A program made the position numbers and the translations under genes. Below are positions 4,969-53,170 of a stretch of 64,000 nucleotides of DNA, piece after piece. Source of the stretch: Manduca sexta. Its lineage: Eukaryota > Arthropoda > Insecta > Lepidoptera > Sphingidae. Below the pieces are notes generated by a model that worked only from the letters and a program-made list of their open reading frames with translations, was not told the origin of the DNA and did no database searches. Numbering within the stretch: position 1 is the first letter of the stretch; the number at the start of each line of letters is the position of its first letter. Location of the stretch: the NCBI RefSeq assembly GCF_014839805.1, contig NC_051119.1:7123245-7187244 (forward strand). The letters are read 5' to 3'.

Positions 4969-7900
4969 CTGAAATAACATGAATCATTTATTTTTGACCC
5001 GATCCAATTCGAATCGAAGAATCAGCGCGGTTGTTGTACTTGTATCATGTATGCATTATAACAACGGCACTGAGGCAGACAATCAATATATACAGGGTCA
5101 TTTTGATATTGCGTTACTAAATGAAACCACATACTAGTCTTCACCTTTGCTGACATTGTGCCAAAAATTATCAATTTTTACGAAAAATCCTGGTTTTAGT
5201 TTTCTGATTATTTGGTCGATATATCGCGTGTGCGTGGGTGTATTTCTTACAGAAAGTATGATGTTGCCACTGCAATGAATTCTCTTAGAGTAGTAGTAGT
5301 GGCTTTAGGGCGCGTAAAATTAACATTACTCTTTATTAATATTTATTTAACGTTGAGTTGTAGCTGTTCTGATTCAAAGCTTAAAATTATTAGTATTTCT
5401 TACAGATTGCGGATGTAAGCTGAGCAGCTCTGCTAATAACTTCGCAGCGAGTTCAGAGGGCGTATGACGTAATACTATGGCTAGTTTGAAAGCGGCCGGC
5501 TGAATGACGTCATCTATGCCTTTCATCAACAGGTTCTGCCATACCCCCGCCTGGAAATTGTGAAAAGTAGGGTTTTTTGTGAGTGCTACAAACTATAGAA
5601 TCCATAGGAAAACGTACTAAATCTATCGGCATATTTAGAAATTACAATTGAATAGTTTATTTCGATGTTTAACATTCGCGTTAACATAGGAAATCATGAA
5701 AAATAAATACACCAAAAACTATGTCATAACCTTTCTATAACATCCTTGAAAAAATGTATTCTATCGACTCCACTTTAAAATGGAATTAGGGTAGGTGAAA
5801 AGATTGAAGCTCAGGAAATAAGCAAATTACTGACGGCTTACATCTAACTAAAAAACATTTTATTACACGTTAAAATTTACATCGGCTTAACAATATTCAT
5901 TTAGGTTACGACCTTGTAAAAGAACAAGCTATTTTTAAGACAAAAATTTGCATGATCGTTAGACTGATCATGCGTGCTTGTCAAGCGTGATGTACCGTGT
6001 GTAATCACCTTAGATAATCGCATTATGAGCCGCAGAGATGAGCACTCGGGCGGAACAAAGGTGAAATCTAAAATAGATTATGGGAAAGTGTTTTTTCTAG
6101 TTTAGAGAAATTTCTTGGTATATTGTGTGAATGGTTTAATTATCTGTTACTGTAATTGTAAGTATGTAAACTCTCTCCATGACAAAAAAATAAGGTATAT
6201 CAACCTTTGATCAGGGATCCAACTCTGATAGCATAAACATAAACCTAATTGATTTTGCGATGTTATCTACTAACAAATACCATTGTAACTCTTAAAATAT
6301 TTTAAAATAAAAAAAATAAACTAACGGACTGTGGGCCAAATCCGGACACCCAATAGAGCTTTTGAGGACTTCTTAGAGAAATTTCTAAGAATATTAATAA
6401 ATTTTGATTCAGAGGGTTACATTACGGTGAGATCAATATTAAATGTTTGTTAAATAATATTTTGCAGTAATTTAATTTTAAATCCAAGGAATGATTTTTG
6501 CGTGATACAGAGCAACAAACGATCACTATCCCTTATTTCGAGCCATCGTGAAAATAGACCAATCAGAACAAAGTTGTTTATATGTACAGATGACTTGAGA
6601 TTAGTTATTATAGCCATCGTGAAAATAAACAAATGAGGAGAAAGTTTTTTTTAATGTACAAATGACTTTGGATTAGTTAATTCGAATTCGGATCGAAAAT
6701 TGGGATCGCTTGTAAATGCCTGGATTACCTGGTAAGCGACACAGTTCCTGAGCGAGTGCCACATGCTGTCAGGCGGCGAGGCGTCGACTATCTGCTTCCA
6801 GGCGTCGTCGGCAGCGGGCGCGACGAGCGTGTTACACGCCGCTCGCCACACCCGCGCCGCCGAGCAGCCTTGCCGCTCCCCGGCAGGCACTATACAATAC
6901 GTTATATGCGAATGAATCCCTCCAAGCCGAAACTTTGGCGGCCAATCTCAACGGTTATCAGCCAGGTAAGATTATAGTGCATAAGCGTGTGCGCCAGTTG
7001 GTGAACTCAGGTCATATAGGTCAGGCGTAGTTGTATTATTTAAGTGTACGAGTACTATCGCCATGAGTTTCTGGCTTCGAATTCCGGGTCGAGCCAAAAT
7101 TTAATTTGACTGCGTTTTTTCATTCTGAGAAATTAGTCAGTCGCAGCTCGGAGTCAGGTATATGGCGGTGTAATGCCTTAGAAAGCACATAAATCCGTTG
7201 GCAGAACCAACTGATTTCTCTTTGGTCATGTCGATTTGCCGTCTCATCGGACTATGAGAGTGAAGGAACAGAGAGTGCACCTGTGTATTGCGCACACACT
7301 TGTGCACTATAATATATCCTGCGTACCTGGCTGATCTCCATTGACATTGGCAACCGTGGCCGAAATTCAGCCATTTTATTCATTTATTCAAGGCTATGGA
7401 AATGAAACTATCGACCCAAGCTCTCCCGTGGGAATGTTTATGAAATTAGCGCGTAAGCAGTCAAGGTTATTAAGTAATTCATTTATTTCGTAGCGTAGCA
7501 TTACGTGCGTACGTACGCCTATACGGTAACAAACTTTTAGGTAAATTCATACTCCATTCTAGTTGAATTTAGTTAGATTTTAATTAAATGTAAATAATTT
7601 TAGATCTCCAGTGTCCATACCAGCCTTCGATTTATAGAAGTAGGTAAGTCAAATACTGATAAAACAGCTCGAATTACGACCTTCTTTATACAACTTATAA
7701 ATTATAATAAAAAAATGAACAGCACGATTAATTTCTGCTTTTATGGCGCCAGGTTGAGTAAAGGTCACGAAGACGTCTACATTTACAAGACATTTTGTAA
7801 ATCGGAATTTGTTCTGGTAAGTAAAATTTAAATAATATTTAAATTATTGATTGTCTGCAATCACTCACATAAAGCTTACCTCCCATGTCGGGCTCCTTCC

Positions 7901-10292
7901 ACCAGTTTATCGCCAGCTTGCTGGTTTATGGGCCCCCTTCTGAAATACCAGTCTAATTTCAGATTTGCTAATATCACTCAGTCAAAAAACCAAGGCCAAT
8001 AAAAAAAACACTCTTTCAAGAAAACTGTTACTAATTCTAAAACCAATTTATTACTTAGTGGCTATGCTAGCGGCTTCGCCCGCGTGTTAAGTATTTTCGG
8101 GATAAAAATTAGCCTATAGCACTCAGAAATACTTTACTGGTGGTAGGCCTTTCATATGTGAGAGTCCGCCTGGGTAGGTACCACCGCAATGTCTATTTCT
8201 GCCGCTAAGCAACAGTGTGTTGTCATTGTTGTGTTCCGCTTTGAAGGACATTGTAGCCAGTGTAACTACTGGATATAATGAGATTGAACATCTCACGTCT
8301 CAGAATGGCGAGCGCAGTGGAATACCAAACAATATTTTATATTTCAAAGTGTTGGATGGTGGTTCTACTGTTTATGGGCGGTCGTATCGCTAACCATCAG
8401 GCGAACGGCAAGCTCGTCTCATCATTGAAAGCAATAAAAAAAGTAATATAGCTTTCCTATGAGCGATAGACCAATTTAACCGATGAACATAGTCCCGAGC
8501 AGTGGCCAAAGGTCCGTATAATCCGATTCCTGTCGGCTTCCCTTCATTAAAATCTAATAATTATCATTAGAACGATTTGGAGATCGCATACCAATGTTGC
8601 GGCGGGTTGCCTTTCGGCAAATTTTACCTTTCGCCCCTGATCCTGAGTATACAGCAATTTTTTTTGCCGTTGAATGACGAGACGAGCCTGCCACTTGCCT
8701 GATGGTAAGTGATACGACCGCCATAAACAGTAGCAATTTCATACAGAGCGATTGTTATACTATCGTTCGAGTAATATGAAGTTTAGTACGCGGGTGCGAT
8801 AGGTCTCATCACGGCGGCCAAAAATAAGTTAAGTATTTTAAAAAATATATAAAGGTATGCTCTGAATGGAATTCACCCTTAAAATACAGCTTACCGAGAT
8901 TATCTATATATATTGATATATCAGGTAATAGTTTCGCCTTTCATATCTACATTTAACTAATTACCACGGTGTAATAATCCACTTACTACTACTAAGTACT
9001 CCACCACTTTCTCCAAACAAGGATAAAACCCATCATAGAGAGTAATTTAGTTTAATTTCAATTAGGGCATAGGTTTAAGGAAGACAATCTAGTGTTAGTG
9101 TAATTTAGTGTTTAAGTATTGTTAATAATGATTGTTTATTGTATAATGCCTTTTCTTAAATAAAAAAATAAGTCATCCACTGTTACGAGTTGTTATTTTT
9201 TTGCTGGATCCGCTAATTGCTAGTGTTTTGATAGCAAAAAGTTGGCAACGACCAAGAGCGCCACTTAACGACGCGTAATCATGTTTAGGCAGGAGAGTCG
9301 CATGAATATCTAATTACAAAATAAGTATAGGTACCTAGGAATTACGTATTAAGGAATGCTTTTAATATTTTAAGCCAGTTATAATCAACTTAATTGGTAG
9401 ATACCCACTCACTTACTTATTGTTAAATTTACTAGAAAAAACAACGCAAAAACAATAGGTAGGTACCTACACTCCCAGCTTTAGGAAAATGAGTTTTCGA
9501 GACTACATTTACGCAACTGCGTTTATTTTTGAGACAAGCGGTTCAAGACATAATAATCATTTATGAATACGTAAAAATATAAATTTATCGCACTATTATG
9601 CTAATGATGTGAAAATTACTTTTTTTATATGTTAATTACACTGAATTAAATACTCGAGTCAAATTTGTGTTATTAAATTATACAGTTAACGAATTTAATG
9701 TATTTGCAAAATTTCGAGTTCTTGCAGAAATTTTCTATACTTATACAATATTGATATCTACTTTATTACCTAGGCAAAGAGCATTACAATACTACGGACA
9801 TTACCTAGGTATCGATTGAATTTGGTAACTAAAGCTACGTCAGTAGGGTCTTAGTACATTGGTTAATAAATTTACTTTATTTTGGTTTAAAGCATGCATA
9901 CAACACTTTTGTCTGTGTTATTAGTTTTAAGTCCCGAGATTTTTATTTAATGAGGCCGTAACCTTGTAATTTATACTCGTTTTTAACCAAACATAGACTT
10001 ATATAAAAGTAGGCTTAACAAATTCCACCCCTATTTCTGAAATTACTGTCACCGTAACCTACAAAAAGGCATAGTATTGAGCTTATTTACCTTTTAATTT
10101 TACTATTAAACACTACTCTACGCATTGTAAACAATGAATCACCTTTTTACAACAATCTATCCATAAACAAGCACAAACTAATAATGTTGCCAAACAATAA
10201 AAAGTAAAAACTCACGATTTCAAATGTCCAATATTTTGTTCGATGGCGTCGGTTCTAAGTGGGCTCACGTGACGTGCGTTGCGTAGTGTCAT
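4732..10292 (-). CDS. Degenerate HD-superfamily phosphohydrolase-like protein (contig B copy)
   Basis: Five exons on the - strand with matching phases: 10292-10216 (ATG), 7920-7880, 6889-6729, 5550-5404 and 4968-4732. They encode about 221 residues; the 3' terminal exon was not found. The protein follows the layout of COG4339 predicted metal-dependent HD phosphohydrolases: VWRA...WKQIV, then WHSLRNC where the family has a YHTL.H-type motif, then AFKLAIVLRHT where the family has an AxWFHD motif, then LFGDLELAVMAA...YDAHAKLVRAEYS, which closely resembles the family's C-terminal VRAEY segment. The first His is kept (about residue 84) but the HD pair reads RH and the later HH region reads DD, so metal binding is probably lost. 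Exon 2 (41 nt) has a poor polypyrimidine tract but is the only choice found that keeps the frame. Family assignment is from motif memory. Confidence 0.55.
6905..6975 (+). repeat. Short fragment of dispersed repeat R3
   Basis: Matches the GCCGAAACTTTGGCGGCC...ATCAGCCAGGTA end of the R3 repeat. It sits directly beside the acceptor of HD-like exon 3; the contig C counterpart is about 51491-51560. Confidence 0.5.
7074..7390 (-). repeat. Dispersed repeat R3, contig B copy
   Basis: About 315 bp, related to 51104-51419 and 59160-59456. It runs from GAATTTCGGCCACGG through CATTGAGATCAGCCAGGTAC and a GTGTGTGCGCAATACACAGG core to a GACCCG-rich end. Lies in an intron of the HD-like gene. No coding capacity seen. 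Confidence 0.65.
8139..8437 (+). repeat. Dispersed repeat R2, contig B copy
   Basis: About 300 bp, running from CTGGTGGTAGGCCTTTCATA through GGGTAGGTACCACCGCAATG and a GGATGGTGGTTCTAC segment to GCGAACGGCAAGCTCGTC. Related copies: 20040-20305, 42920-43182, 50078-50374 and 58507-58793. It has the look of a short retroelement; class not assigned. Confidence 0.7.
8676..8742 (-). repeat. R2 repeat end fragment
   Basis: Only the GACGAGACGAGCCTGCCA...GATACGACCGCC end of R2 is present. The contig C counterpart is about 49774-49840. Confidence 0.5.
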
Positions 10293-10978
10293 GGCGATTC
10301 GGTGGGGACGGATAGTGAAGTGATCCTATCGATTATGAAATGTCAATGATCCAGTATCGATAACGTCAATATATTACGCAGTTCCCTTAAAACTTTCAAA
10401 AATACTAAATTGTATGTGATAATATTTTGATGACACTGTGGTGAATGGGATGATAAATTCTCGTTTTTGAAGTCAATTCTTTATTTTTATAGTAGTTCAT
10501 ACGCAGTATAATTATTGATTATAATATTTTTCTAATCATACATTATGTATCAGTCTAAAAAAATATCATATCATACCTATCATACTGCTTTGTTTAGACA
10601 GCAGGTACTTGACGGGCTAATAAAATGCTTGTATTTTTATTTCTTTTTTAATTTAGCATAATTGTAATGGTTCAATTTAAAAATGATGATGAACTGCTTT
10701 AATATACATAAAATACCGTAGAATAAATTTATTACAGCCCCGCATCTTTATGATATAATAAGAATATTGTTAAATTTACTAGAAATTGCAATATCGATAA
10801 GTACTATATTATTTTCATTCACATTCCTACACAGGGGTAGCACTCAGATGCTTGAGCCGAGGTAGGCGCATGCGTGAAGACTGGAGAAGGGTGAAAACAT
10901 ATTGTATGCTATATTGACATAGTTCGACCTTATTATTAATGACGTAGAATTCATTATGGATAATCTAATTCAAATGTG

Positions 10979-12100
10979 ATAAAGCTGCCAGGGAATTTTA
11001 AGTCTTAATTTTTAGTAGCTACAACGTATTTTTACATGTGTAATTTATTGTGACTCATCAAAATCGGTCAACCCTGAACTTGAAGCGGCGCGGCGCGGCG
11101 TCAACATTCAACGTCATTTTGAACCGACTTTAAAAAAGGAGGAGGTTCTCAATTCTATTGTAGTTTTTATGTTTGTTACCTCAGAACTTTTGACTGGGTG
11201 AACCGATTTTGACGATTATTTTTTTATTTGAAAGCTGGTGCTTCTCGTGTGGTCCCATATAAATTTCATTATTGTTGGGTGCTTGTTTTCGGCGATACAT
11301 CAGAAAACTCCTAAAATTATGGCGTCAACTATGATGTCGACGTATACTTACTGATTTTTACTAAAACGAAAGAGCAAAAAATAAAAACATTTAACAAAAA
11401 ATTGTACCGTCTTCAAAAACCACTAACAACCATAAAATAATTTTAACATTACCTTTATACCGGTTACTAATTTTGGAATCAATGACTAACAAAAATAAAA
11501 CATTACTTAAAATTGCTAGTTAAGCTAAAATAAATACATAAACAAATGTACGAAAACAATATATTTAATAATTAGTTATTGACCAATAAATCAATGAGAT
11601 TAACTTCAGTGATGGCTACAAAACGCAAATTAATAATAACAACCCAAAGATTTAAAAAAACATTAATTAACATATACTTAAATATTATATTAAACAATCT
11701 TCTCACTCAGTAGTAGAGGAGGACCGTGGCTAGCTGTGGGACAGTATATTATAATACAGGGCTGATATGTGAATTCTCTTTATTTAAAGTTTTTTTTTTA
11801 TTTACATATATATTTTAAAAAAACATGAATATAAAAATATAAAAAAATGAATGACCCTCCGATGGCGAAGCTCAAGGATACAGGGCTGATATTGTTATTA
11901 TTATAAATCTTCTTACACACCTCCGCCTACATGCCTGCTGAGTGTATGCAAGGCTTTAATTAGGAGCATATTAAGAAAAGTCGCCATGCTGAGCTCGCAC
12001 CACGCACCCTTGTTAACTGGTGAAACAGGAACAGGCGGGCTAAAAATAAATTGTGTTATTAATAAAGACAACTAACACTTTTTCGTCCTGTAGGTCTGAA
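10979..12100. repeat. Direct repeat of contig A (1-1095)
   Basis: Same order and orientation as contig A. It contains the common lepidopteran repeat tail with GACTTTAAAAAAGGAGGAGG and ACTTTTGACTGGGTGAACC, and a degenerate SINE 3' end (about 11700-11765) ending in AATACAGGGCTGATATG. Confidence 0.75.
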
Positions 12101-12102
12101 TT

Positions 12103-12412
12103 ATGCCGGCGCCACACATAGCAAATTGAACACTTATTTGAACACTTGTTTGAACTCATCTGTGGCACGGGTTATTTGCGTATTTGTGCAAAGTTCGTTT
12201 AAATGTTTGCGTATTTGGCATTCGGTATCGGTTTTTCGAACACACATCAAAGCGTTTAAAGTTATCGAGTTGCTTGAAGGAGAACCGATTATATGGAAAA
12301 CAAAAAGTAAAAGCCATAAAAATTGAAATTTGGTCAGTATCTGTAACTGTGTTCCAAAGTGTGGCAAAGTCTTTATTCAAATATTTGTCTGTGTGTGGCA
12401 CCGGCATTATAA
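12103..12412. mobile_element. TIR-type MITE (family M2), contig B copy
   Basis: About 310 bp, bounded by inverted ATGCCGGCGCCACACA and TGTGTGGCACCGGCAT. The inner TIR extends imperfectly through CAAATATTTG-like sequence. The contig C copy is 46339-46635, and the left end of a third copy starts contig A's boundary (about 1099-1136). The overlapping open frames of 60-112 codons on both strands look like no known transposase and are taken as chance. Confidence 0.6.
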
Positions 12413-12866
12413 ATAGTTACCTAAAGGAATACTTCAATATCATACTCTATAACCTCATCTTTGAAAGAAGAACCTTTTATTTAAAAACGAAGGTTTTGGA
12501 TTTCATTGAATTAATTAGGTAGGTATATTTACAGGTATAAAGACTTTGTTAAACCTAATTAGGCTCAGTGCAGAGCTGTCCACTTGTTATCGAAAACTGT
12601 TCAGTAGGAATATTATTTTTTATACGGACACTCTAATGTACCCACATGACACTTGATGGTAAGTAGGGCTCAGATAGTCTCAGTTGACACAATTACGCCG
12701 GCCTTTTAACCGGATATACACAGGCTGATCCCAGAACGCGACCCACTTGGACAACAATGGTTTTACACCTTTCGTGCGGTCGCTAACCGCGCGGATAAAT
12801 ATACGACTACCAGCTAATGTGGTCTAGGTAACCTCTTGAAAGGGTTTGCGCCATGCATTAGTTTCC

Positions 12867-15800
12867 TTACAATCTATATTCAATCCGAAAGAGGTCTTCC
12901 CACACTTCGAATCTGTTCTCGAAGAGTTTCTTGCCCAGCGTGAACTCCTTGCCTATGCGCAGGTAGGTTCTGTTGTTCATATTCATGGCGGGCCATGACA
13001 AAGGGCTTCGTTTCGCATACTGGTCCATGAAGACTAAATTAGGTTTCCTGAAAATAAAATCATGTAAGCATTACGAATATTGCTATATTTTTTTTATACA
13101 AAAGTAGACAGTTTCTATTACCTATTGGGGCAGGTACGGATTTAGAGGGGAGATGGCGGAAGCAAAAAAAGGTTACTCAATTCAAGGAAAGGCACCAGCG
13201 AAGCATATGTAAGCGCAAGGCTTTTTTTGGGGTGAGCAAAGGCCTTTCAAGTCTGGGTATAGCACACCTTTGTCACTCCTACCTATGGCCATGTTTATAG
13301 CGGAACGAAATAGATTACAAATTCAAATTCATATTGGAAATTACAACCTCTGGGATTACTTTGTAATTTTTTGGTTTATTTTCCTCCCAAAACTATGGTT
13401 TCGACTTTCGAGTGACAATCTCTTGGAAGCTGGGTCGCTCTCTATATTCACATTTTAAGGCAGTAGTACCTAGCCTTTTCAATATTGTTACTCTAATTCT
13501 CTACGTGGAAAATTAATTTTACCCCGCCTTCAAAATGTTATCAAAACAAACAATAGAAGCAAATGCAAACATCTCTATTAATCATAAATTGCACAACAGC
13601 CTTACAATTTGTCAGCTCTGTTATTTTTTTTTATTTTACTATCCTATAATTAGGTTATTTGTTACCCCCGTGAAATAGGTGATTTACCCCCGCGGGGGTT
13701 ATTACCCCCAGGTTAAGAACCCAGGTCCTAAGGTCTTCTAATAAAGCGCACTTACCCAGTGTTAGCAAAGTTGTACCACATTGTGGTCATTTTGTCCACC
13801 ATTTTGGAATCTTCGCTGTCTGATACTGTAATAGCAGGAAAGCTACTTAACGAGAATAAGTAGATAAGTTCGTCGTAGTGAGCCACTCCTGTAGAAAAAG
13901 TTTATTTTTAATATAGGTCAAAAAAAATTAAGCCGTTATGTTCATTATCATCATCCACATGATCCCTACTGCTTAATATATAATTCCAAGTATTTTAAAC
14001 CCACTGCTGGGCACGGGTCTCCTCTACTACTGAGATAGTTTAGAACTACCACAATGGCCAACTGCGGGTAGACTTCACAGTTCACATACCTTTGAAATTC
14101 TTATGAAGAATTCTTAGTTTTCCTTTAACGAAGCAAGCAATAATTGATAAACAATACACATAATTAAAAAGACATAGGTATGTGCCCCGGATTTTGACCA
14201 TGCGGCCCATTATTTCGGTAGCCTGTGCCATTCCTTACTAGGAATTTAGTCTATCACGTAGGTACTCCACTGAATATAAACCTTTCCCAAAGATTTCCAG
14301 AACAATCACTTGCAAGCGACGCTGCGACTTCTACCAGGTTGTCTATCCACATTGTAAAAATGCTTCAGTTTAGTAGCTTATTATTAATATAAATGGAAAT
14401 GTTTAAATGTTTGTTAGAAGTAAACGCAGAAGGTGTGAAACGAATAGATAAATTTTAATTTAGGCAATTTGTAACGGAAAAGACTATTTAATCAGGCGGA
14501 ACCGCAAATAACGTCTAGTATTAGTCTAAAAATTTTAATGAAGGTAGGTACATGGAATACGTCACTTTAGGATACTATCAGTCTCATAAAAATTTCGCAA
14601 AACTATGCTTAGTTAAAACACAAAATTATACGATCAGCTGTAAGTCAAAACCCGCCATCTTGCCTCTTAATTAGGAACCGGTGATGTTTTTGACAGCTAT
14701 ATTTAAGCAATTCTTAACCACCTTTTAACATCAAAACAAATTTATAAGTAAGACTGTAAAAGTGTAAAGACGACCAAAGCTTCATAAATACAATATGTAC
14801 TCACCCATAGGTTTCTTCGTGACAGGGTCTTCGTAATGGCTGTGGTTGCCGATGTAGTCGAATAGGTAGTAGTAGACCGGTTGTGGAGAGTGCAAGCACA
14901 TGAGTACAGCCATCCTGTATATAGTTTTATTTAATTGTGGGAGACAGCATGATTGCTAACGATGGTAGCAAGATTGCAGATTCCGTTTCGTAGCACGTCT
15001 AGTGAGCTTCGAATTTGGGAAACAACACGACAAGACTGTCGCTTTATTGGTTGAGAGACTGAGTGACGCATTGGTTTCTCTATCATACATGTAATATTAG
15101 AGCAATAAAACAAAACTTGTAATTAAAACACACAGTTTCTTTTGGACAGGGACGCTCAAGTGACAGCTTCACTTTACAGAAGTTATGCCTTGTGGTTTAT
15201 AATAAAAATGTTCACCATAGACACAACAGATGGCGTTATTAATTATTTTGGTACAGATCTAACACCCGCACTTACCAAAATAATATGGGCACACAACAAT
15301 TAATAGTTTCTCAAAAAAATATTAAACATTTTTTTACATTCTGTATACCTAACAACTGCATAAAATAATAATGCTTAGTGTTACCCAATCCCTTTGTAAA
15401 AGGTCCGCTGGCATTTCAGCAGTTTCTAAATACTTAAGTTCTACAAACTTTTTAGTAACACATTCTTTACAAAAATGGTAGCGGACATCTATATGTTTGG
15501 TTCTTTTATTGAAGCAATTATTTGAGGTCAACTTAATTGCACCCTGATTATCATTAAATAAATTAATGGTGTATGACTCAACAGTTATTTCTTTTAACAA
15601 ATTAATCAAATAAATTGCTTCCCTGCAAGCATCAGTTATGCCCATGTATTCAGCTTCTGTACTTGAGAGGGCAACTGTTTTTTGTTTCTTTGCCTCCCAT
15701 GAAACTACACTACCTGCTAACATAAAACATAAACCTGTATAAGACCTTCTGTCTATAACATTATTCCCCAATCTGCATCTACAAACCCTTCTAAATTTGA

Positions 15801-18800
15801 CTTACCATATTTAGTATATTTTAATCCAAAATGTTTAGTTTTCTTAAGATATTTCAAAATTCGTTTTGCATATGCCCAAGTTTCAAGATTATAGCAATTA
15901 TTAAATTGACTCAGAAAACTAACTGAATATGCAATGTCAGGTCTAGTCAACACTGCTAAATACATTAGCCCACCAATCAGTTGCTGATAGGGTATACACT
16001 TTTCACAATTGTTATTAAAGTTAATATTTAATTTAGTCTCTAAAGGTGTGTCAGCTACTTTACAATTTGCCATATTAAATTTATTTAATAACTGATTAAT
16101 ATAATTTTCTTGGCTTAATGTAACTGTGCCTTTAACTTTATCAATATTAACAGTCATTCCTAAACAATTTTTAACCTGACCTAAATCTTTTATTTTGAAC
16201 TTTGAAGCCAATACCTTTTTTAAATTATTACATTCACTAATATCATTTGTAAACACAAAAAAGTCATCTACATACAAGGTTACTATTGTCTTTTTATGAT
16301 TGTTATTTTTTGTGTACAAACATGGTTCTAATTTAGATCGCTTATAACCAAGGCTAACTAGATAATCATCCACTTTCCTATACCAGGCCCTTGAGGACTG
16401 CTTAAGACCATATATAGCTCGGTTCAATTTAACTACCTTTTTATTACAGTTATCTTTAGATTCTAGCAAACATTCAGGTGCTTCCATATAGATTGTTTCC
16501 TCAAGGTCCCCATTTAGGAATGCTGTAGTGACATCAAGGTGCATAACTTCTAACCCAAGTTTCACAGATAATGCAAACAATAACCTTAAGGTTGAATGCC
16601 TAACCACAGGTGAAAAAGTTTCTACATAGTCTACATTTTGCTTCTGCATATAGCCTTTGGCTACCAAACGAGCACGGTATCTAATGTTATTATCATTGTC
16701 TAGTTTTTTACGTAGCACCCACTTACACTTCACTACAGTTTCACCATTCTTTGGCTTATCCACTAGCTCCCATGCATTGCTGTCCTCAAAAGACTGAAGT
16801 TCCTCCTTGACTGCCAATAGCCAATTTTCCTTTTCTGCTCCCTGTAATGCTTCTTCTAGGGATAGTCCATTTGCATCATCAAATGCTTCCTCAGATATAC
16901 ACATATTAGTCATCCGATACCGCTCTGGCTTCCTCTTGGTTCGGATGGGTCTTACCCGCTTCTCAGGTAAGTCATAACCATCTTCATGTTCACTAGGAAC
17001 ATAAGGGTCATCTGGGTAATCTGATGGTTTACATACTGTATCACCTCCAATCACATCTTCTGAACTTGATGTGTCCTTGTCAGATATCTCCCGCACTGAA
17101 GATGAATTTTCTATATTTTCAATAATCGGTAAGCTAACATCAAGATTCTTTTCTTCTTCCATGACAATAACATCCCTGCTTATTATCACACGTTTTGTTC
17201 TAGGGTTGAATATTCGATAACCTTTGATGTCATCTGGATAGCCCACAAGTATGTGCTTTTCTGATTTTCTGTCCCATTTATGGCGCCTCTCTTTAGCAAC
17301 ATGGGCCATGACGGTGCTACCAAATATTCTGAGGTGACTTATATCAGGCTTACAGCCAGTCCAGACTTCATAAGGAGTTCTTTCATTTAACGCAGGAAGC
17401 ACAGTACGATTTTGTAAGTAAACAGCAGTATTAGTGGCTTCTGCCCAGAACTCTTTATCCATATCTGCATCGAATAGCAAACACCTGGCTTTCTCTACAA
17501 TAGTACGATTATTGCGCTCTGATAAGCCATTTTGTTCAGGGGTATATGGGGTAGTTCTTTGATGAATTATACCCTCCTCTTTGAGAAATGAATCAAATTC
17601 CTTATTACAGTACTCACATCCATTGTCACTTCTTAGAATCTTTATTTTCTTATTACTTTGTTTTTCAACTTTAGCTTTAAATTCTTTGAAACATCTTAAA
17701 GCTTCATTTCTGTGTTTAATGAAATAAACAAACAACATACGACTATAGTCATCAACAAATAGTATAAAGTATCTGGAACCAGCAAGTGATTCATGCTCCA
17801 TAGGTCCACAAATATCAGTATGGACTAAATGAAGCAATTCTTTGCTTCTTGAACCTTCATTTCCAAATGGTAAACGACACTGTTTGCCTTCACAACAGAT
17901 TGTACATGTTGCCTTACCAAAATCTACCTTTTCTTGAAGATTCATACCTTCGACAGCTATTTTCATCTTACTAAGATATTTGTCATTAAGATGGCCTAAT
18001 CTGCGATGCCATATATTACTTGACGCTGACAAATTTGCTGCTAAATTTTCAGGCACTTTTAATTTGTATACACCATTATTCAACATAGCTGTAGCGACCA
18101 GTTCGCCTTTTTTGTTGAAGACTTCACAACCATTCTTGGTAAATTTTACTGTATTACCGGTCTTTATTAACTGGCTCACTGACAGTAAGTTAGTAGTCAA
18201 ACCTGGAGCACACAATACGTTCTTGACTGTAACTTCAAATTCACATTGATCAGTCTTTGTAACAATAGTCACATCGCCGGTACACAATACTTGCAATCTC
18301 TCACTGTTAGCGATACAAATGTCCTTTATCTTATGATACTTTGCATTCTCTACCCACTCTTCATTCGCCGTCAAATGCATACTTGCTCCTGAGTCAATAT
18401 ACCAGTCATATTTATTAAACTGAGCACTTAAAAACACTGTACTGAATACGTTACTGGGTTTGCGTTGCATTTCTTTTAGATATGTTGATGTTAACATTAT
18501 TTGGACACTGATTCTTATAATGTCCTGGTTCTTTGCAACGGTAACATTTGACGTGACTCTTGGCGCCAACATTGACGTTTGGTTGCGATTGAGTTCTTTG
18601 CGCGGTGGCCATAGGTAATTTATTTTTCTTATGTTGCCATTTCTGCGTTCTACTTGCGAATGCACTGCTAACCTCGTTAGATTGGTTACTTCCACTCACT
18701 TCCGTTTCCATGTCCATGAGCTTGGTTCTAATGGCGTCCGTTGTAATTTGTATGCCGGAATGCTCGATCGCCATTATCATCGGCTTAAAATTCTCTGTCA

Positions 18801-21800
18801 ATCCAGCCAACAACAGGCAACCGATCCACTCATCACTGATATTAAAACCTGTCCCACTCAGTTTCTGCCCCGTTTCGACTATTTGCGTTACGTACGACTG
18901 CATCGAGACACAATTTTCCAAACGAATTGAGATTAAATTACGCAAAAGTGATATTCTTCGTGTAAATCCCGAGTCATCAAATAATGTCTTTAGCTTGTTC
19001 CATAGTTCCAAAGTAGTTTTAACTTCTTTTATATGGACATATAACGCAGTATCTATAGTCATCACTAACTTTGCCTTAGTTCTCGCGTCATCTGCGGCTT
19101 CTATCTTTTCCCGGTTTCTGGTTTAATGCAGTGCAGCATATCTTCCAGGACTAGAAAATTTTCCGCGGCGAACAGCCATTCGTTGTAGTTTTCCCGGCCT
19201 TTTAACTTGGGAACATTTACAATATAATTCAATGCCATTCTTGCAACTATTACTGTACAAAGTAACTAATAACATTTAACTATTATTGTATCAATGTTTC
19301 ACCACTTTTTAACTGAGAAACACAACTACTTAAAAGACAAACTAAGGATTCTGGGTCTGGGCCCATAACCTGTAATATTAGAGCAATAAAACAAAACTTG
19401 TAATTAAAACACACAGTTTCTTTTGGACAGGGACGCTCAAGTGACAGCTTCACTTTACAGAAGTTATGCCTTGTGGTTTATAATAAAAATGTTCACCATA
19501 GACACAACAGATGGCGTTATTAATTATTTTGGTACAGATCTAACAATACAAACATCAAAATTAAATGACATCCGACGTGACTTATAAGTCGCGTTGTTTA
19601 GAAAATTTTAAGGGGGCTGGTCTTACGATTATTCCCTAAACACATCAATAAACACTTTAATTTCCAGTTACAGGCGTCCAGTTGTCAGGATAAATGGGCG
19701 CTGTCCAGTATTCAAATAGAGCTACATTGTTTTGAGGGATTGTAAAAATTTTGGTGGGTTTCTGTAAGACATTACTATTTCTCTCTTTATCTTGGTAAAG
19801 TTTATCCAATTATGCTATAAACAAACTTACTAATTCAATACCGATAGTGAAGTCTATGCGTAAGAGACATGAAGACTGGTAACGTAAGTTGTTGACTACA
19901 TTTATATTTCGAATGTTCCAAAAAAAGTAGGTACTTTATAGATTTAATAAGCGAATAATTCACATGAAGCTGATCACCAACAGTCAATTTTAAGTGCATG
20001 GTGATACTTTTTGAAAGGCCCCACAAGTTTTTTTTGAATACTCTGAATGACAAGTTGAGCTTGCCGTTCGCCTCATGGTAATTGACACGACTGCCCATAT
20101 ACAATAAAAACACCATCCAACATCTTGAATAAAAGTATTTTTTGGTATTTTACTGCACTCGCCATCCTGAGATATGAGTTGTTATGTCCAGTAGTCCTTT
20201 AAACCGGAACACAAAAGTGACTGAACTGCTGTTTGGCGGTAGAAATAGAAACTGCGGTTGTACCTACCCAGGCGTACTCTCACATATGAGAGACCTACCA
20301 CCAATATAGTGTAGAGTGTACAGTTTACCTTACCTATGCACTGAAAATCCAGTGATGGAATCGGTGTAAAATCTGCCCAAAGCTTCAGCAAAGAATGTGT
20401 TGTTCATCAACTCTTTTTTCCTAAAGTACATCATGTTAAGCCTGTCCACTAACGTGGTGGTATCTGAAGCGTTCATATTTGAAAGCATGAACGTGGAAGC
20501 CATCGATTCCATATGTTGCTTCATCTTGTTGAATAGTGTAGCGTTGCGCATTACAGCTGAAAATATAGTATATATAATAATATCAGCCCTGTATTATATA
20601 CTGTCCCACTACTGGGCACGGGCCTTCTCTACTACTGAGAGGGATTAGGCCTTAGTCCACCTCGCTGGTCTAATGCGGATTGGTAGACTTCAAACACCCT
20701 CGAAATTCCTATAAAGTAATTCTCAGGTGTGCAGGTTTCCTCACGATGTTTTCCTTTAAGTAAGCGATAATTCACAAAGGATACACACATAATTTTTTGG
20801 AAAAATCAGAGGTGTGTGCCCTTGGGATTTGAACCTGCGGACATTCGTCTCGGCAGTCCATTTCACCACCAACTAAGCTATCGCCACGTTGCTCTATTCG
20901 CAGCTGATAATAAAATATTTTTTTTCACAGAATACTCGGCAGTAAATAAAGCTAGAAAAGAAAATCAGCAAGACAATATGTAACTTAATTCATATAGAAA
21001 AATAAACCATATATTGGTAAATATAAAACTAATTTCTTGTCCTGACATCGTTAACTTTAATATGAAAACTATTAGTGGCGTCCCCAGCAGGTTTACATTT
21101 CCCTGGTCATGGTATAATCTTTACGTGCCTGACGTGTACTTGGTATAAAAATATTTCAATATAAAATAGGATGTTGGTAGGTAATATTTTGAATCAGGAG
21201 CAATAAAAGACATAGCCCCTTATTCATACACGTTATTTATCTAAGGACGGTGCATTGCTGTGATAACAAGCCTGCTTTACAGTGCTGACGGCATGGCAGC
21301 CTTCGCGGTGCGTAGATATAGGGCCGTTGTAATTGGCTAATATTTAAATACAACTAGAATCTAGTTGGCTGTCAGATAAACAAAGCTGTGTAACAGACTT
21401 GTTACCACAGTAATGTTCCGTCATTAGATAAATAATGTCTATGAATAAGGAGCCTAGACTACAAGTCATAAACAAAAAGAAATGTTTGCTGCATACTGAA
21501 CGCTTTCCAAAAGAACTCGTTCCTTGTCAAGCCAATGATAAAAGGAACTGCATGCATTTTGCCTGCTCTGATAGCATCTATGGGTTCTTCAGTCAGAAAC
21601 CGCTCCTGGCCGAAGTCTGATTCCACCACCGCTGACCACAGGTCACCGGGATCATAGTCGAACTCCTGCAAAAATTCAAAATGTAAATTTCTTAGCATTT
21701 CAGTAACTGCGGTTATTGAATTGTCTAGTCCTGATTGTAGTTTGTAACTCAATCAAAATTTTCAAAATGGCAAACGCTACGCTCGGTATTTGCCTTTAGG

Positions 21801-30249: not shown

Positions 30250-30749
30250 NNNNNNNNNNNNNNNNNNNNNNNNNNNNNNNNNNNNNNNNNNNNNNNNNNN
30301 NNNNNNNNNNNNNNNNNNNNNNNNNNNNNNNNNNNNNNNNNNNNNNNNNNNNNNNNNNNNNNNNNNNNNNNNNNNNNNNNNNNNNNNNNNNNNNNNNNNN
30401 NNNNNNNNNNNNNNNNNNNNNNNNNNNNNNNNNNNNNNNNNNNNNNNNNNNNNNNNNNNNNNNNNNNNNNNNNNNNNNNNNNNNNNNNNNNNNNNNNNNN
30501 NNNNNNNNNNNNNNNNNNNNNNNNNNNNNNNNNNNNNNNNNNNNNNNNNNNNNNNNNNNNNNNNNNNNNNNNNNNNNNNNNNNNNNNNNNNNNNNNNNNN
30601 NNNNNNNNNNNNNNNNNNNNNNNNNNNNNNNNNNNNNNNNNNNNNNNNNNNNNNNNNNNNNNNNNNNNNNNNNNNNNNNNNNNNNNNNNNNNNNNNNNNN
30701 NNNNNNNNNNNNNNNNNNNNNNNNNNNNNNNNNNNNNNNNNNNNNNNNN
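30250..30749. other. Assembly gap, exactly 500 N
   Basis: Separates contigs B and C. The sequence left of the gap is homologous to about 34310, not to 30750, so the gap does not mark the middle of a simple hairpin. Confidence 0.98.
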
Positions 30750-33262: not shown

Positions 33263-33787
33263 AATATAGTTTAATTATGAATGATGTTTTATTTAGTTCA
33301 TACGCTAGAGTCTATAATGGTATTAAGTATTATAAGAAAATCTTCACCGACGCACTGAGTCAAGTATGTCTTCCATATTGTAATAATACCCATTTCTCAC
33401 TAGACCCCCTATTTGTTTTATGACTCTAAAACGTACGTATCTAATCTTTTAATTTCGTACCTTTGAACAACGCTTGATAAAAGGATTACCGTATCATTTG
33501 TAATAACTACCGACTCGTATTTTGGACCGACGTTTCTTCGAGGTACAAAATCGTCAACGATCAAACATTCAGCTATTGCTATATACACAACACAATAACG
33601 TTAGCATGCCATAACATGCGTAATTTATTCCGCTACAAAACTTGAATATGAAACCGTTTCCCTGCACGCATACAACGGAATATCTACCTTATCTACTCAT
33701 AATAACTCATAAAATCATATAGGATATGAAGTTGTATAAGTGGGGTAAACAATTAATAATCTCATATTGAGTCAGGCGGTCGTAGAA
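33263..33787. other. Interval between secreted-protein gene and hydrolase
   Basis: About 525 bp with no gene. It must contain the 3' end of the first gene and the promoter or 5' UTR of the hydrolase. No clear AATAAA or TATA box was found. Confidence 0.5.
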
Positions 33788-35296: not shown

Positions 35297-35347
35297 ACAT
35301 AACTATTTTGTCATATTCATTAGTAGTATTTTTTATAATGAGTAATT

Positions 35348-35353
35348 AATAAA
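35348..35353 (+). terminator. Poly(A) signal of the hydrolase (contig C)
   Basis: AATAAA about 52 bases after TAA, conserved in position with the contig B copy. Confidence 0.65.
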
Positions 35354-36005
35354 GTGGTAATTATTATTTTTTGTATTGTTTCATTTGACCAACTAGATGG
35401 CGCTTTAGCAAGTAAGCAATGAAAATAATATCGCACCTTCCATGAGACAAGGGCACCATGATTGTTAACAATTCTTAAAATGAGTTACGTATGCCAATGC
35501 GCCTCAAAACATCTTTTTATTTGGAGGAACAAAGTCACTCATCAAGTTCAATCCCATTTCGCCAGAGGGCCATACTGCCTTTGTTACATTAGTGCATCGA
35601 CAAAATCTTACTAGTCAGTTGCAACATTCCCCGCACACATCCAATATTATAATTCTCTTTGCATCCAATTGTGCCCTTGCCTCACCAAAAGTACGATAAA
35701 GAGAACTAGTGTTATGTTACCTATAGAGCGTAATGCGCATAATATTTGCTACAAGTTACATTTGGAATGACGCCTAGCTTTTGCATGATATAGCTATCTA
35801 CCTATCTTAGACGTAATATGAAGTTCTAAGGAACATTGCACTCTGTCAAAAAATTTAAATTCGTCTTGATTCAAAACTCAACATAACACACTTCCCCACA
35901 ACACAATTCTTTATATTTGCATGTTTACACACACTGACGAAATTCATTCATAAGTATGAGATTCCGCGCAAAACGGGTTAGTCCTCCGTCGATTTTACAA
36001 GGAAA

Positions 36006-45881
<9,876 letters not shown>

Positions 45882-46338
45882 GGAAACTAATGCACGGCGC
45901 AAACCCTTTCAAGAGGTTACCTAGACCACATTAGCTGGTAGTCGTATATTTATCCGCGCGGTTAGCGAGCGCACGAAAGGTGTAAAACCATTGTTGTCCA
46001 AGTGGGTCGCGTTCTGGGATCAGCCTGTGTATACCCGGTTAAAAGGCCGGCGTAATTGTGTCAACTGAGACTATCTGAGCCCTACTTACCATCAAGTGCC
46101 ATGTGGGTACATTAGAATGTCCGTATAAAAAATAATATTCCTACTAAACAGTTTTCGATAACAAGTGGACAGCTCTGCACTGAGCCTAATTAGGTTTAAC
46201 AAAGTCTTTATACCTGTAAATATACCTACCTAATTGATTCAATGAAATCCAAAACCGCGGTTTTTAAATAAAAGGTGCTTCTTTCAAAGATGAGGTTATA
46301 GAGTGTGATATTGAAGTATTCCTTTAGGTAACTATTTA

Positions 46339-46635
46339 TAATGCCGGTGCCACACACAGACAAATATTTGAATAAAGACTTTGCCACACTTTGGAACACA
46401 GTTACTGATACTGACCAAATTTCAATTTTTATGGCTTTTACTTTTTGTTTTCCATATAATCGGTTCTCCTTCAAGCAACTCGATAACTTTAAACGCTTTG
46501 ATGTGTGTTCGAAAAACCGATACCGAATGCCCAATACGCAAACATTTAAACGAACTTTGCACAAATACGCAAATAACCCGTGCCACAGATGAGTTCAAAC
46601 AAGTGTTCAATTTGCTATGTGTGGCGCCGGCATAA
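46339..46635. mobile_element. TIR-type MITE M2, contig C copy
   Basis: Bounded by ATGCCGGTGCCACACA and its inverse TGTGTGGCGCCGGCAT. Allelic to 12103-12412. Confidence 0.6.
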
Positions 46636-46639
46636 TTCA

Positions 46640-47660
46640 GACCTACAGGACGAAAAAGTATTAGTTGTCTTTATTAATAACACAATTTATTTTTAGCCCG
46701 CCTGTTCCTGTTTCACCAGTTAACAAGGGTGCGTGGTGCGAGCTCAGCATGGCGACTTTTCTCAATATGCTCCTAATTAAAGCCTTGCATACACTCACCA
46801 GGCATGTAGGCGGATAGTGTGTAAGAAGATTTATAATAATAACAATATCAGCCCTGTATCCTTGAGCTTCGCCATCGGAGGGTCATTATTTTTTTTATAT
46901 TTTTATATTCATGTTTTTTTTAAATATATATGTAAATAAAAAAAAAACTTTAAATAAAGAGAATTTACATATCAGCCCTGTATTATAATATACTGTCCCA
47001 CAGCTAGGCACGGTTCTCCTCTACTACTGAGTGAGAAGATTGTTTAATATAATATTTATATGTTTATTAATGTTTTTTTAAATCTTTGGGTTGTTATTAT
47101 TAATTTGCGTTTTGTAGCCATCACTGAAGTTAATCACATTGATTTATTGGTCAATAACTAATTATTAAATATATTGTTTTCGTACATTTGTTTATGTATT
47201 TATTTTAGCTTAACTAGCAATTTTAAGTAATGTTTTATTTTTGTTAGTCATTGATTCCAAAATTAGTAACCGGTATACAGGTAATGTTAAAATTATTTTA
47301 TGGTTGTTAGTGGTTTTTGAAGACGGTACAATTTTTTGTTAAATGTTTTTATTTTTTGCTCTTTCGTTTTAGTAAAAATCAGTAAGTATACGTCAACATC
47401 ATAGTTGACGCCATAATTTTAGGAGTTTTCTGATGTATCGCCGAAAACAAGCACCCAACAATAATGAAATTTATATGGGACCACACGGGAAGCACCAGCT
47501 TTCAAATAAAAAAATAATCGTCAAATTCGGTTCACCCAGTCAAAAGTTCTGAGGTAACAAACATAAAAACTACAATAGAATTGAGAACCTCCTCCTTTTT
47601 TAAAGTCGGTTCAAAATGACGTTGAATGTTGACGCCGCGCCGCGCCGCCGCTTTAAGTTC
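46640..47660. repeat. Third copy of the contig A repeat (inverted)
   Basis: Inverted relative to 1-1095 and 10979-12100, with scattered SNPs. Ends in the CGCCGCGCCGCGCC region at about 47635-47655, where the 239-bp segment of contig B is absent. Confidence 0.7.
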
Positions 47661-48201
47661 CCCTGTGTAGGAATGTGAATGAAAATAATATAGTACTTAT
47701 CGATATTGCAATTTCTAGTAAATTTAACAATATTCTTATTACATCATAAAGATGCGGGGCTGTAATAAATTTATTCTACGGTATTTTATGTATATTAAAG
47801 CAGTTCATCATTTTTAAATTGAACCATTACAATTATGCTAAATTAAAAAAGAAATAAAAAATACAAGCATTTTATTAGCCCGTCAAGTACCTGCAGTCTA
47901 AACAAAGCAGTATGATAGGTATGATATGATATTTTTTTAGACTGATACATAATGTATGATTAGAAAAATATTATAATCAATAATTATACTGCGTATGAAC
48001 TACTATAAAAATAAAGAATTGACTTCAAAACGAGAATTTATCATCCCATTCACCACAGTGTCATCAAAATATTATCACATACAATTTAGTATTTTTGAAA
48101 GTTTTAAGGGAACTGCGTAATATATTTACGTTATCGATACTGGATCATTGACATTTCATAATCGATAGGATCACTTCACTATCCGTCCCCACCGTATCGC
48201 C

Positions 48202-51200
48202 ATGACACTACGCCACGCACGTCACGTGAGCCCACTTAGAACCGACGCCATCGAACAAAATATTGGACATTTGAAATCGTGAGTTTATACTTTTTATTGT
48301 TTGGCAACATTATTAGTTTGTGCTTGTTTATGGATAGATTGTTGTAAAAAGGTGATTCATTGTTTACAATGCGTAGAATAGTGTTTAATAGTAAAATTAA
48401 AAGGTAAATAAGCTCAATACTATGCCTTTTTGAAGGTTACGGTGACAGTAATTTCAGAAATAGGGGTGGAATTTGTTAAACCTACTTTTATATAAGTCTA
48501 TATTTGGTTAAAAACGAGTATAAATTACAAGGTTACGGCCTCATTAAATAAAAATCTCGGGACTTAAAACTAATAACACAGACAAAAGTGTTGTATGCAT
48601 GCTTTAAACCAAAATAAAGTAAATTTATTAACCAATGTACTAAGACCCTACTGACGTAGCTTTAGTTACCAAATTCAATCGATACCTAAGTCATTTCCAT
48701 AGTAAGTATTGTAATGCTCTTTGCCTAGGTAATAAAGTAAATATCAATATTGTATAAGTATACAAAATTTCTGCAAGAACCCGAAATTTTGCAAATACAT
48801 TGAATTCGTTAACTGTATAATAATTTAATAACACAAATTTGACTCGAGTATTTAATTCAATGTAATTACTTAACATATAAAAAAAGTAATTTTCACATCA
48901 TTAGCATAATAGTGCGATAAATTTATATTTTTACGTATTCATAAATGATTATTATGTCTTGAACCGCTTGTCTCAAAAATAAACGCAGTTGCGTAAATGT
49001 AGTCTCGAAAACTCATTTTCCTAAAGCTGGGAGTGTAGGTACCTACCTATTGTTTTTGCGTTGTTTTTTCTAGTAAATTTAACAATAAGTAAGTGAGTGG
49101 GTATCTACCTATTAAGTTGATTATAACTGGCTTAAAATATTAAAAGCATTCCTTAATACGTAATTCCTAGGTACCTATACTTATTTTGTAATTAGATATT
49201 CATGCGACTCTCCTGCCTAAACATGATTACGCGTCGTTAAGTGGCGCTCTTGGTCGTTGCCAACTTTTTGCTATCAAAACACTAGCAATTAGCGGATCCA
49301 GCAAAAAAATAACAACTCGTAACAGTGGATGACTTATTTTTTTATTTAAGAAAAGGCATTATACAGAAAACAATCATTATTAACAATACTTAAACACTAA
49401 ATTACACTAACACTAGATTGTCTTCCTTAAACCTATGCCCTAATTGAAATTAAACTAAATTACTCTCTATGATGGGTTTTATCCTTGTTTGGAGAAAGTG
49501 GTGGAGTACTTAGTAGTAGTAAGTGGATTATTACACCGTGGTAATTAGTTAAATGTAGATATGAAAGGCGAAACTATTACCTGATATATCAATATATATA
49601 GATAATTTCGGTAAGCTGTATTTTAAGGGTGAATTCCATTCAGAGCATACCTTTATATATTTTTTAAAATACTTAACTTATTTTTGGCCGCCGTGATGAG
49701 ACCTATCGCACCCGCGTACTAAACTTCATATTACTCGAACGATAGTATAACAATAGCTCTGTATGAAATTGCTACTGTTTATGGGCGGTCGTATCACTTA
49801 CCATCAGGCAAGTGGCAGGCTCGTCTCGTCATTCAACGGCAAAAAAAATTGCTGTATACTCAGGATCAGGGGCGAAAGGTAAAATTTGCCGAAAGGCAAC
49901 CCGCCGCAACATTGGTATGCGATCTCCAAATCGTTCTAATGATAATTATTAGATTTTAATGAAGGGAAGCCGACAGGAATCGGATTATACGGACCTTTGG
50001 CCACTGCTCGGGACTATGTTCATCGGTTAAATTGGTCTATCGCTCATAGGAAAGCTATATTACTTTTTTTATTGCTTTCAATGATGAGACGAGCTTGCCG
50101 TTCGCCTGATGGTTAGCGATACGACCGCCCATATACAGTAGAACCACCATCCAACACTTTGAAATATAAAATATTGTTTGGTATTCCACTGCGCTCGCCA
50201 TTCTGAGACGTGAGATGTTCAATCTCATTATATCCAGTAGTTACACTGGCTACAATGTCCTTCAAAGCGGAACACAACAATGACAACACACTGTTGCTTA
50301 GCGGCAGAAATAGACATTGCGGTGGTACCTACCCAGGCGGACTCTCACATATGAAAGGCCTACCACCAGTAAAGTATTTCTGAGTGCTATAGGCTAATTT
50401 TTATCCCGAAAATACTTGACACGCGGGCGAAGCCGCTAGCATAGCCACTAAGTAATAAATTGGTTTTAAAATTAGTAACAGTTTTCTTGAAAGAGTATTT
50501 CTTTTATTGGCCTCGGTTTTTTGACTGAGTGATATAAGAAAATCTGAAATTAGACTGGTATTTCAGAAGGGGGCCCATAAACCAGCAAGCTGGCGATAAA
50601 CTGGTGGAAGGAGCCCGACATGGGAGGTAAGCTTTATGTGAGTGATTGCAGAAATCAATAATTTGAATATTATTTAAATTTTACTTATCAGAATGAATCC
50701 CGATTACAAAATGTCTTGTAAATGTAGGCGTCATATCGCGCCATAAAAGCAGAAACTAAACGCTCTGTCTAATTTTTTATTATAATTATAAGTTGTATAA
50801 AGAAGGTCGTTTTTCTGATAGATTATCTATTAATTTGACTTACCTACTTCAATAGATCTTAAGCTGTTATGAACATCAAAGATCTAAAATGATTTACATT
50901 TAATTAAAATCTAACTAAATTCAACTAGAATGGAGTATAAATTTACCTAAAAGTTTGTTACCCTATAGGCGAACGTACGTAATGCTACGCTACGAAATAA
51001 ATGAATTACTTAATAACCTTGACTGCTTACGCGCTAATTTCATAAACATTCCCACGGGAGAGCTTGGGTCGATAGTTTCATTTCCATAGCCTTGAATAAA
51101 TGAATAAAATGGCTGAATTTCGGCCACGGTTGCCAATCTCAATGGAGATCAGCCAGGTACGCAAGATATATTATAGTGCACAAGTGTGTGCGCAATACAC

Positions 51201-53068
51201 AGGTGCACTCTCCGTTCCTTCACTCTCATAGTCCGATGAGACGGCAAATCGACATGACCAAAGAGAAATCAGTTGGTTCTGCCAACGGATTTATGTGCTT
51301 TCTAAGGCATTACACCGCCATATACCTGACTCCGAGCTGCGACTGACTAATTTCTCAGAATGAAATAACGCAGTCAAATTAAATTTTGGCCCGACCCGAG
51401 ATTAGAAGCCAGAAACTCGTACTCGTACACGTAAATAATACACTACGCCTGACCTATATGACCTGAGTTCACCAACTGGCGCACACGCTTATGCACTATA
51501 ATTTTACCTGGCTGATAACCGTTGAGATTGGCCGCCAAAGTTTCGGCTTGGAGGGATTCATTCGCATATAACGTATTGTATAGTGCCTGCCGGGGAGCGG
51601 TATAGTTGCTCGGCGGCGCGGGTGTGGCGAGCGGCGTGTAACACGCTCGTCGCGCCCGCTGCCGACGACGCCTGGAAGCAGATAGTCGACGCCTCGCCGC
51701 CTGACAGCATGTGGCACTCGCTCAGGAACTGTGTCGCTTACCAGGTAATCCAGGCATTTACAAGCGATCCCAATTTTCGATCCGAATTCGAATTAACTAA
51801 TCTAGTCATTTATACATTAAAAAAAACTTTCTTCTCATTTGTTTATTTTCACGATGGCTATAATAACTAATCTCAAGTCATCTAACATATAAACAACTTT
51901 GTTCTGATTGGTCTATTTTAACGATGGCTCGAAATAAGGGATAGTGATCGTTTGTTGCTCTGTATCACGCAAAAATCATTCCTTGGATTTAAAATTAAAT
52001 TACGGCAAAATATTATTTAACAAACATTTAATATTGATCTCACCGTAATGGACCCACTGAATCAAAATTTATTAATATTCTTAGAAATTTCTCTAAGAAG
52101 TCCTCAAAAGCTCTATTGGCTGTCCGGATTTGGCCCACAGTCCGTTAGTTTATTTTTTTATTTTAAAATATTTTAAGAGTTACAATGGTATTTGTTAGTA
52201 GATAACATCGCAAAAACAATTAGGTTTATGTTTATGCTATCAGAGTTGGATCTCTGATCAAAGGTTGATTGATATACCTTATTTTTTTGTCATGGAGAGA
52301 GTTTACATACTTACAATTACAGTAACAGATAATTAAACCATTCACACAATATACCCAGAAATTTCTCTAAACTAGAAAAAACACTTTCCCATAATCTATT
52401 TTAGATTTCACCTTTGTTCCGCCCGAGTGCTCATCTCTGCGGCTCATAATGCGATTATCTAAGGTGATTACACACGGTACATCACGCTTGATAAGCACGC
52501 ATGATCAGTCTAACGATCATGCAAATTTTTGTCTTAAAAATAGCTTGTTCTTTTACAAGGTCGTAACCTAAATGAATATTGTAAAGCCGATGTAAATTTT
52601 AACGTGTAATAAAATGTTTTTCAGTTAGATGTAAGCCGTCAGTAATTTGCTTATTTCCTGAGCTTCAATCTTTACACCTACCCTAATTCCATTTTAAAGT
52701 GGAGTCGATAGAATACATTTTTTCAAGAATGTTATAGAAAGGTTATGACATAGTTTTTGGTGTATTTATTTTTCATGATTTCCTATGTTAACGCGAATGT
52801 TAAACATCGAAATAAACTATTCAATTGTAATTTCTAAATATGCCGATAGATTTATTACTTTTTTCTATGGATTCTATAGTTTGTAGCACTCACAAAAAAC
52901 CATACTTTTCACAATTTCCAGGCGGGGGTATGGCAGAACCTGTTGATGAAAGGCATAGATGACGTCATTCAGCCGGCCGCTTTCAAACTAGCCATAGTAT
53001 TACGTCATACGCCCTCTGAACTCGCTGCGAAGTTATTAGCAGAGCTGCTCAGCTTACATCCGCAATCC
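48202..53068 (+). CDS. Degenerate HD-superfamily phosphohydrolase-like protein (contig C copy, 3' truncated)
   Basis: Four exons: 48202-48278 (ATG, 77 nt), 50586-50626 (41 nt), 51584-51744 (161 nt) and 52922-53068 (147 nt). Phases 2, 1, 0, 0 join without a stop. Differences from the contig B copy are few: RHARHV for RNARHV in exon 1, PAGERYSC for PAGERQGC in exon 3. The exon with the conserved VRAEYS block is missing because contig C ends at 53170. The first codons lie just downstream of a CACGTCACGTG-like motif. The HD pair is again RH (AIVLRHT). The small second exon has a poor acceptor context (CCATAAACCAG), so the join between residues 26 and 40 is the weakest part of the model. Confidence 0.5.
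49774..49840 (+). repeat. R2 repeat end fragment, contig C
   Basis: Allelic to 8676-8742; contains GGGCGGTCGTATCACTTACC and GGCAGGCTCGTCTCGTC. Confidence 0.5.
50078..50374 (-). repeat. Dispersed repeat R2, contig C copy 2
   Basis: Allelic to 8139-8437 in inverse orientation; lies in intron 1 of the HD-like gene just before exon 2. Confidence 0.65.
51104..51419 (+). repeat. Dispersed repeat R3, contig C copy
   Basis: From AAAATGGCTGAATTTCGGCC through GTGTGTGCGCAATACACAGG to GCCCGACCCGAGATT. Allelic to 7074-7390; a further copy lies at 59160-59456. Confidence 0.65.
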
Positions 53069-53170
53069 GTAAGAAATACTAATAATTTTGAGCTTTAAAT
53101 CAGGACAGCTACAACCCAACGATAAATAAATATTAATAAAGAGTAATGTTATTTTTACGCGCCCTAAAGC

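Follow-up and report, generated by a model that had tools for sequence, protein, structure and literature searches.

An inverted repeat at a carboxylesterase-like locus of Manduca sexta, most probably a false duplication of two alleles

Does Manduca sexta carry an inverted duplication of an esterase locus, or has the assembly left two alleles of one locus side by side? The question is raised by a stretch of 64,000 nucleotides (contig NC_051119.1 of GCF_014839805.1, positions 7,123,245 to 7,187,244 of the forward strand), hereafter the window, which by every sign comes from the assembly JHU_Msex_v1.0 and in which two neighbouring contigs, B and C, match each other in opposite orientation. From sequence comparisons, we consider that the inverted repeat is almost certainly a false duplication made by the assembly, two alleles of one locus having been left next to each other.

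Positions are those of the window, negative ones lying to the left of its start, and C5 denotes the scaffold that holds it. We fetched 100 kb on each side of the window and compared the resulting 264 kb against itself with BLASTN. Copies were also searched for genome-wide among 4,056 contigs (470,002,661 bases); as only the best candidates were scored in these searches, short repeats are under-counted. The window is laid out as follows:

1..1136, forward strand: right end of contig A, which starts at -85959, outside the window; a third copy, which shares the orientation of B and overlaps its positions 10980-12143
1137..1636, no strand: 500-N gap between A and B
1637..30249, forward strand: contig B, read as one haplotype; the end of A recurs in 1637-12143, and 5302-30243 is the counterpart of C
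30250..30749, no strand: 500-N gap, read as a false B/C junction; the end of B instead runs seamlessly into reversed C497, an unplaced contig
30750..53170, reverse strand: contig C, read as the other haplotype and placed opposite to A and B; its part 34292-53170 corresponds to B 30243-5302 and its part 30750-34287 to C497 15177-11639, read in the direction of B
53171..53670, no strand: 500-N gap between C and the next contig, D

The reversed match between contigs B and C

An earlier note on this DNA had described an inverted duplication, and self-alignment of the window confirms it: B 5302-30243 matches C 53170-34292 in reverse. Four long pieces make up the match, with lengths of 5555, 4029, 7245 and 2251 aligned columns and identities of 96.8, 96.9, 96.0 and 89.2%, respectively, far above chance. 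Realignment of these pieces gave 76 indels and, over 18,773 ungapped columns, 545 mismatches (2.9%). Counting as homopolymer changes those of 1-3 bp in a run of four or more, we found 12 among these 76 indels, a poor fit to the “many homopolymer-length changes” that had been noted between the two copies; the corresponding figure for A against B is 21 of 53.

The match meets a contig end on both sides (B 30243 of 30249, C 53170 of 53170). The statement that it extends up to a 500-N gap at both ends of the shared region stands in the sense that a gap is reached at one end of each contig. The few clean insertions reported between the copies are also seen. Indeed, three insertions present in B only break the match: about 240 bp at B 10838-11076, absent from C and common to contig A; about 1.27 kb at B 26762-28036, without counterpart in C; and a 4,456-bp retrotransposon, for which C has the empty site. 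Gaps between duplicated pairs on one scaffold were described as a mark of false duplication (PMC9516828), and such a gap, of 500 N, separates B from C at 30250-30749. The unbroken sequence that a true inverted segmental duplication has between its arms was not found, the arms being joined here by the 500-N gap only.

The continuation of contig B and two Manduca proteins

Beyond the end of B, C 30750-34291 has one other long match genome-wide, at 95% identity, to positions 11639-15177 of the unplaced contig C497. C497 is 15,177 bases long, and its match to C 30750-34287 reaches its last base, where B stops. When the end of B followed by reversed C497 is compared with reversed C, no base is lost or gained at the joint, and the sole gap in its vicinity, two bases long, falls in a run of A on the B side. 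The joint cuts the gene for 5-hydroxyisourate hydrolase (HIUase), leaving its last exon on B and its first part on C497. Most simply, B and C497 would be a single contig cut in two. Since C497 is collinear with reversed C and abuts B, the right flank of B is the same as the flank that follows reversed C, and this shared right flank argues for collinear alleles and not for the arms of a palindrome.

By our own criterion, alleles are to be recognised as collinear, staggered contigs with the same flanks. This is what we observed, the left flank of B being in contig A and the right one in C497, and the different single-copy flanks of a true inverted segmental duplication were not found. The claim that each contig has unique sequence beyond the end of the other has to be dropped, as 1637-5301 is also in contig A and 30750-34287 is also in C497.

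The region shared by B and C holds one carboxylesterase-like gene, with HIUase across its right end. For the former, we used P0157 (O3G_MSEX012036), a Manduca sexta protein of 600 amino acids that matches the exons of both B and C in order:

11922..28530, reverse strand: carboxylesterase-like gene, B copy (tblastn of P0157, stretches ordered from 28530 down to 11922)
36006..46814, forward strand: carboxylesterase-like gene, C copy (tblastn of P0157, stretches in order; COesterase matches)
33788..35293, forward strand: HIUase gene on C (its first part at 33788-34042 and its last exon at about 35195-35293)
29248..29346, reverse strand: last exon of HIUase on B (first part on C497 14682-14936, beyond the cut)

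For P0157 and for the Manduca HIUase protein, P0001, the protein listing gives a single contig each, of 241,661 and 763,062 bases, respectively. Neither length fits a place found in this genome, and the two proteins would thus come from another Manduca assembly, presumably Msex_1.0. The listing clusters proteins at 90% identity, so that a single entry would not by itself exclude a second copy. Of the 598 P0157 residues covered in both contigs, 22 distinguish B from C; we dropped 12 of these sites because they lie at exon edges, with intron run-in or a split codon (20, 21, 65-68, 225, 422-424, 426 and 427). Among the remaining ten, P0157 is B-like at three (17, 207 and 534), C-like at six (262, 265, 289, 515, 541 and 595) and like neither at one (188). 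Such a mixture points to recombining alleles; fixed paralogues should yield one B-like and one C-like protein. As for HIUase, the Manduca sexta protein is 98% identical to the fragment on contig C and agrees with the C497 allele at all of its 85 residues, carrying the C497 state at both sites (2/2).

Altogether, the proposal that two alleles lie head to head is supported by the continuation of B on C497 and by the mixed residues of P0157. The two-contig picture in which it was framed has to be extended to at least three placed contigs (A, B and C) and the unplaced C497, all on one locus.

Two other unplaced contigs, C349 and C1031, match positions 1-8000 of C497 in pieces, at 98-100%. It seems that C5 lacks the true right-hand flank of the locus, which would have been left unplaced in more than one copy.

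How the duplication may have arisen, and its rivals

The assembly JHU_Msex_v1.0 was made from one male, with nanopore reads (read N50 of 9,156 bp) assembled by Canu and Hi-C scaffolding by 3D-DNA in diploid mode (PMC8022704). In this setting, two divergent parental versions of the locus in one heterozygous male would have given separate, staggered contigs, B and C, which we infer to stem from the two homologous chromosomes, and contig A overlaps the start of B as a further contig of the locus. The scaffolder would then have set these contigs side by side, unmerged and with 500-N gaps, placing C in reverse, and the right-hand continuation of B would have been cut off to become the unplaced C497. 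Both the cut and the wrong orientation were presumably made by 3D-DNA. The number of contigs rose from 5,381 in the Canu assembly to 6,517 in the final one (PMC8022704), which indicates that contigs were split, and the B/C497 cut may well be among these splits.

The main text of PMC8022704 has no word starting with “haplot”, “heterozyg” or “purge”, and our literature search found nothing on duplications in JHU_Msex_v1.0. Duplicated BUSCOs were given as 5% for this assembly, in a table row that comes from another source and for which the BUSCO set may differ, and as 0.6% for Hyles lineata when curated (3% before purging), 0.3% for H. euphorbiae and 2.9% for H. vespertilio (PMC10234378); the value for Clanis is 0.15% (PMC11443141).

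Among described types of false duplication, the locus resembles a false heterotype duplication (PMC9516828) in that a single heterozygous individual has yielded two divergent copies, separated by gaps on one scaffold. It differs from it in that one copy is reversed, a third contig overlaps, and one continuation is unplaced. The A/B pair recalls a false homotype duplication, or unmerged overlap of contig ends (PMC9516828), being near-identical at the ends of the overlap and having many homopolymer indels; however, the middle of the overlap differs in an allele-like manner, so that sequencing error is not the whole of it.

The A/B overlap pairs -9356..1136 with 1637..12143 in the same orientation, at 98.4% identity over 10,545 columns (BLASTN; 97.3% in the part within the window), and spans from the last base of A to the first base of B. 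The contig preceding A also overlaps the start of A in the same orientation, in two pieces of 97.5 and 97.7% identity. Within the 264 kb, and for this locus alone, three of the five gaps are thus bordered by overlapping neighbours, B/C included. Genome-wide, three long copies were found for 47660-53170, two for 12144-15086, and one for 8 kb in the middle of A, where the other matches are of about 410 bp at most.

To the left of the window, from -98491 to -73142, two adjacent contigs have overlapping ends on either side of a 500-N gap, with about 97.5% identity.

Several observations weigh against the presence of just two alleles of one locus. In the 264-kb self-comparison, no match of at least 700 bp was found at the other two of the five gaps, the C/D gap and the next one. 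Substitution in the B piece 28036-30243 amounts to 7.5%, which is high for alleles, compared with 1.8-2.7% in the other three B/C pieces and 3.3% between C497 and C. The retrotransposon and the other B-only insertions would also fit two diverging paralogues. Finally, 5302-12143 is covered by three contigs, whereas a diploid has two alleles. Of the 6,523 gap-free columns common to A, B and C, 110 set C apart from the other two, 47 set A apart and 25 set B apart, and in one all three differ. Contigs A and B are similar towards either end of their overlap but differ in an allele-like manner at about 3600-8600. Two alleles alone, without error or haplotype switching, do not predict three differing contigs.

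Could the repeat then be a real inverted segmental duplication, a palindrome of about 25 kb or more whose gaps mark what the assembler could not cross? Its two copies do lie close together in opposite orientation on one scaffold, as the arms of a palindrome would, and they differ by 2.9%, and by up to 7.5% in one piece. However, no unbroken sequence joins them; B runs into C497, collinear with what follows reversed C, so that the outer flanks do not differ; the third contig, A, overlaps B in direct orientation; and P0157 mixes B-like and C-like residues. A palindrome would hold only if the duplicated block also took in C497 and happened to have its edges at contig ends. We rejected a real inverted duplication on the ground that the continuation of B, C497, is collinear with reversed C, and give it very little credence. 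Its more specific form, a recent inverted duplication of esterase and HIUase that segregates in Manduca sexta, includes C497 and has its edges at contig ends by chance, appears just as improbable.

The differences private to each of the three contigs over 5302-12143, and those between A and B in the middle of their overlap, would also suit a contig A that is a genuine third copy, a tandem duplicate, with B and C as alleles. But A and B are almost the same where their overlap begins and ends, both have the 240-bp insertion that C lacks, the overlap runs exactly from the last base of A to the first base of B, A is rich in homopolymer indels against B, as expected of raw nanopore contig ends, and the copies drop from three to two where A ends. 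As one male was sequenced and copy number changes in step with contig ends, a separate third gene copy is not favoured, and we hold it to be extremely unlikely. With a single diploid moth, any third copy must derive from the same two haplotypes, as a redundant contig or a mosaic one, and A would be a redundant contig that is either rich in errors or switches haplotype.

Lastly, a true inversion between the homologous chromosomes, with C drawn in its real orientation, takes the scaffold at face value and was rejected as scarcely credible, for B and C show no breakpoint, stay collinear up to the contig ends and have the same flank at the right end, and the orientation of a 22-kb contig across gaps depends on Hi-C signal alone. 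Gaps of 500 N and mis-oriented small contigs are usual with 3D-DNA.

Genes and repeats of the locus, and what the artefact means

The earlier note had expected the counts of an esterase, an HD-like gene and a hydrolase to be doubled. This is so for the esterase, present on both B and C; HIUase is not whole twice in the window, B having its last exon only. No HD-type domain came out at E <= 0.01 when 34292-53170 and 1637-5301 were scanned against Pfam in six frames; contig D was left aside, and the scans took in one frame of 30750-34291, of 313 aa and without a Pfam family, and, of the private inserts of B, the retrotransposon frame. COesterase and Transthyretin were the only families in 34292-53170.

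The carboxylesterase-like protein itself is probably inactive. While the nucleophile motif is G-x-S-x-G in all nine aligned relatives (9/9), it reads GSGAG on B (22947-23129), GCGAG on C (40087-40269) and GSGAG in P0157, with a glycine in place of the catalytic serine. The loss of this nucleophile suggests an enzyme without activity; the serine is kept in the Manduca relatives P0158, P0182 and P0186.

The retrotransposon of B lies in an intron of the esterase gene, between the exons at B 20551-20333 and about 14925:

15090..19545, reverse strand: Ty1/copia-type long terminal repeat (LTR) retrotransposon, on the same strand as the gene, present in B and absent from C

Its two 175-bp LTRs (15090-15264 and 19371-19545) are identical. 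It is flanked by a 5-bp duplication, ATACA, of which the empty site in C has a single copy, and its 980-aa frame holds rve and RVT_2 domains. Paired LTRs with TG...CA ends, a short target duplication and an integrase upstream of the RVT_2 reverse transcriptase, a domain order that we take to be that of Ty1/copia, agree with this assignment. The identity of the LTRs suggests a very young insertion, and its presence in B but not in C indicates that it is probably polymorphic.

Two further repeats were noted. The start of contig D, 53671-58375, has a reversed second copy at C5:10300277-10304995, 3.1 Mb away on the same scaffold, with 95% identity, which is probably another haplotig. At 50064-50373, a repeat of about 310 bp has dozens of copies among the matches listed, on many scaffolds and mostly at 90-92% identity; it is probably a short interspersed element.

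A real inverted repeat here would amount to a recent, inverted duplication of genes in a model insect. As we read it, the artefact is an ordinary and well-described one, and the inverted duplication is not to be treated as biology. Esterase counts, calls of inversions or palindromes, and estimates of copy number would all be misled here, where one locus shows two to three times. In practice, when neighbouring contigs overlap end to end across gaps, a cut-off continuation should be sought among the unplaced contigs. For Manduca sexta, the carboxylesterase-like gene and the HIUase gene of this locus should each be counted once.

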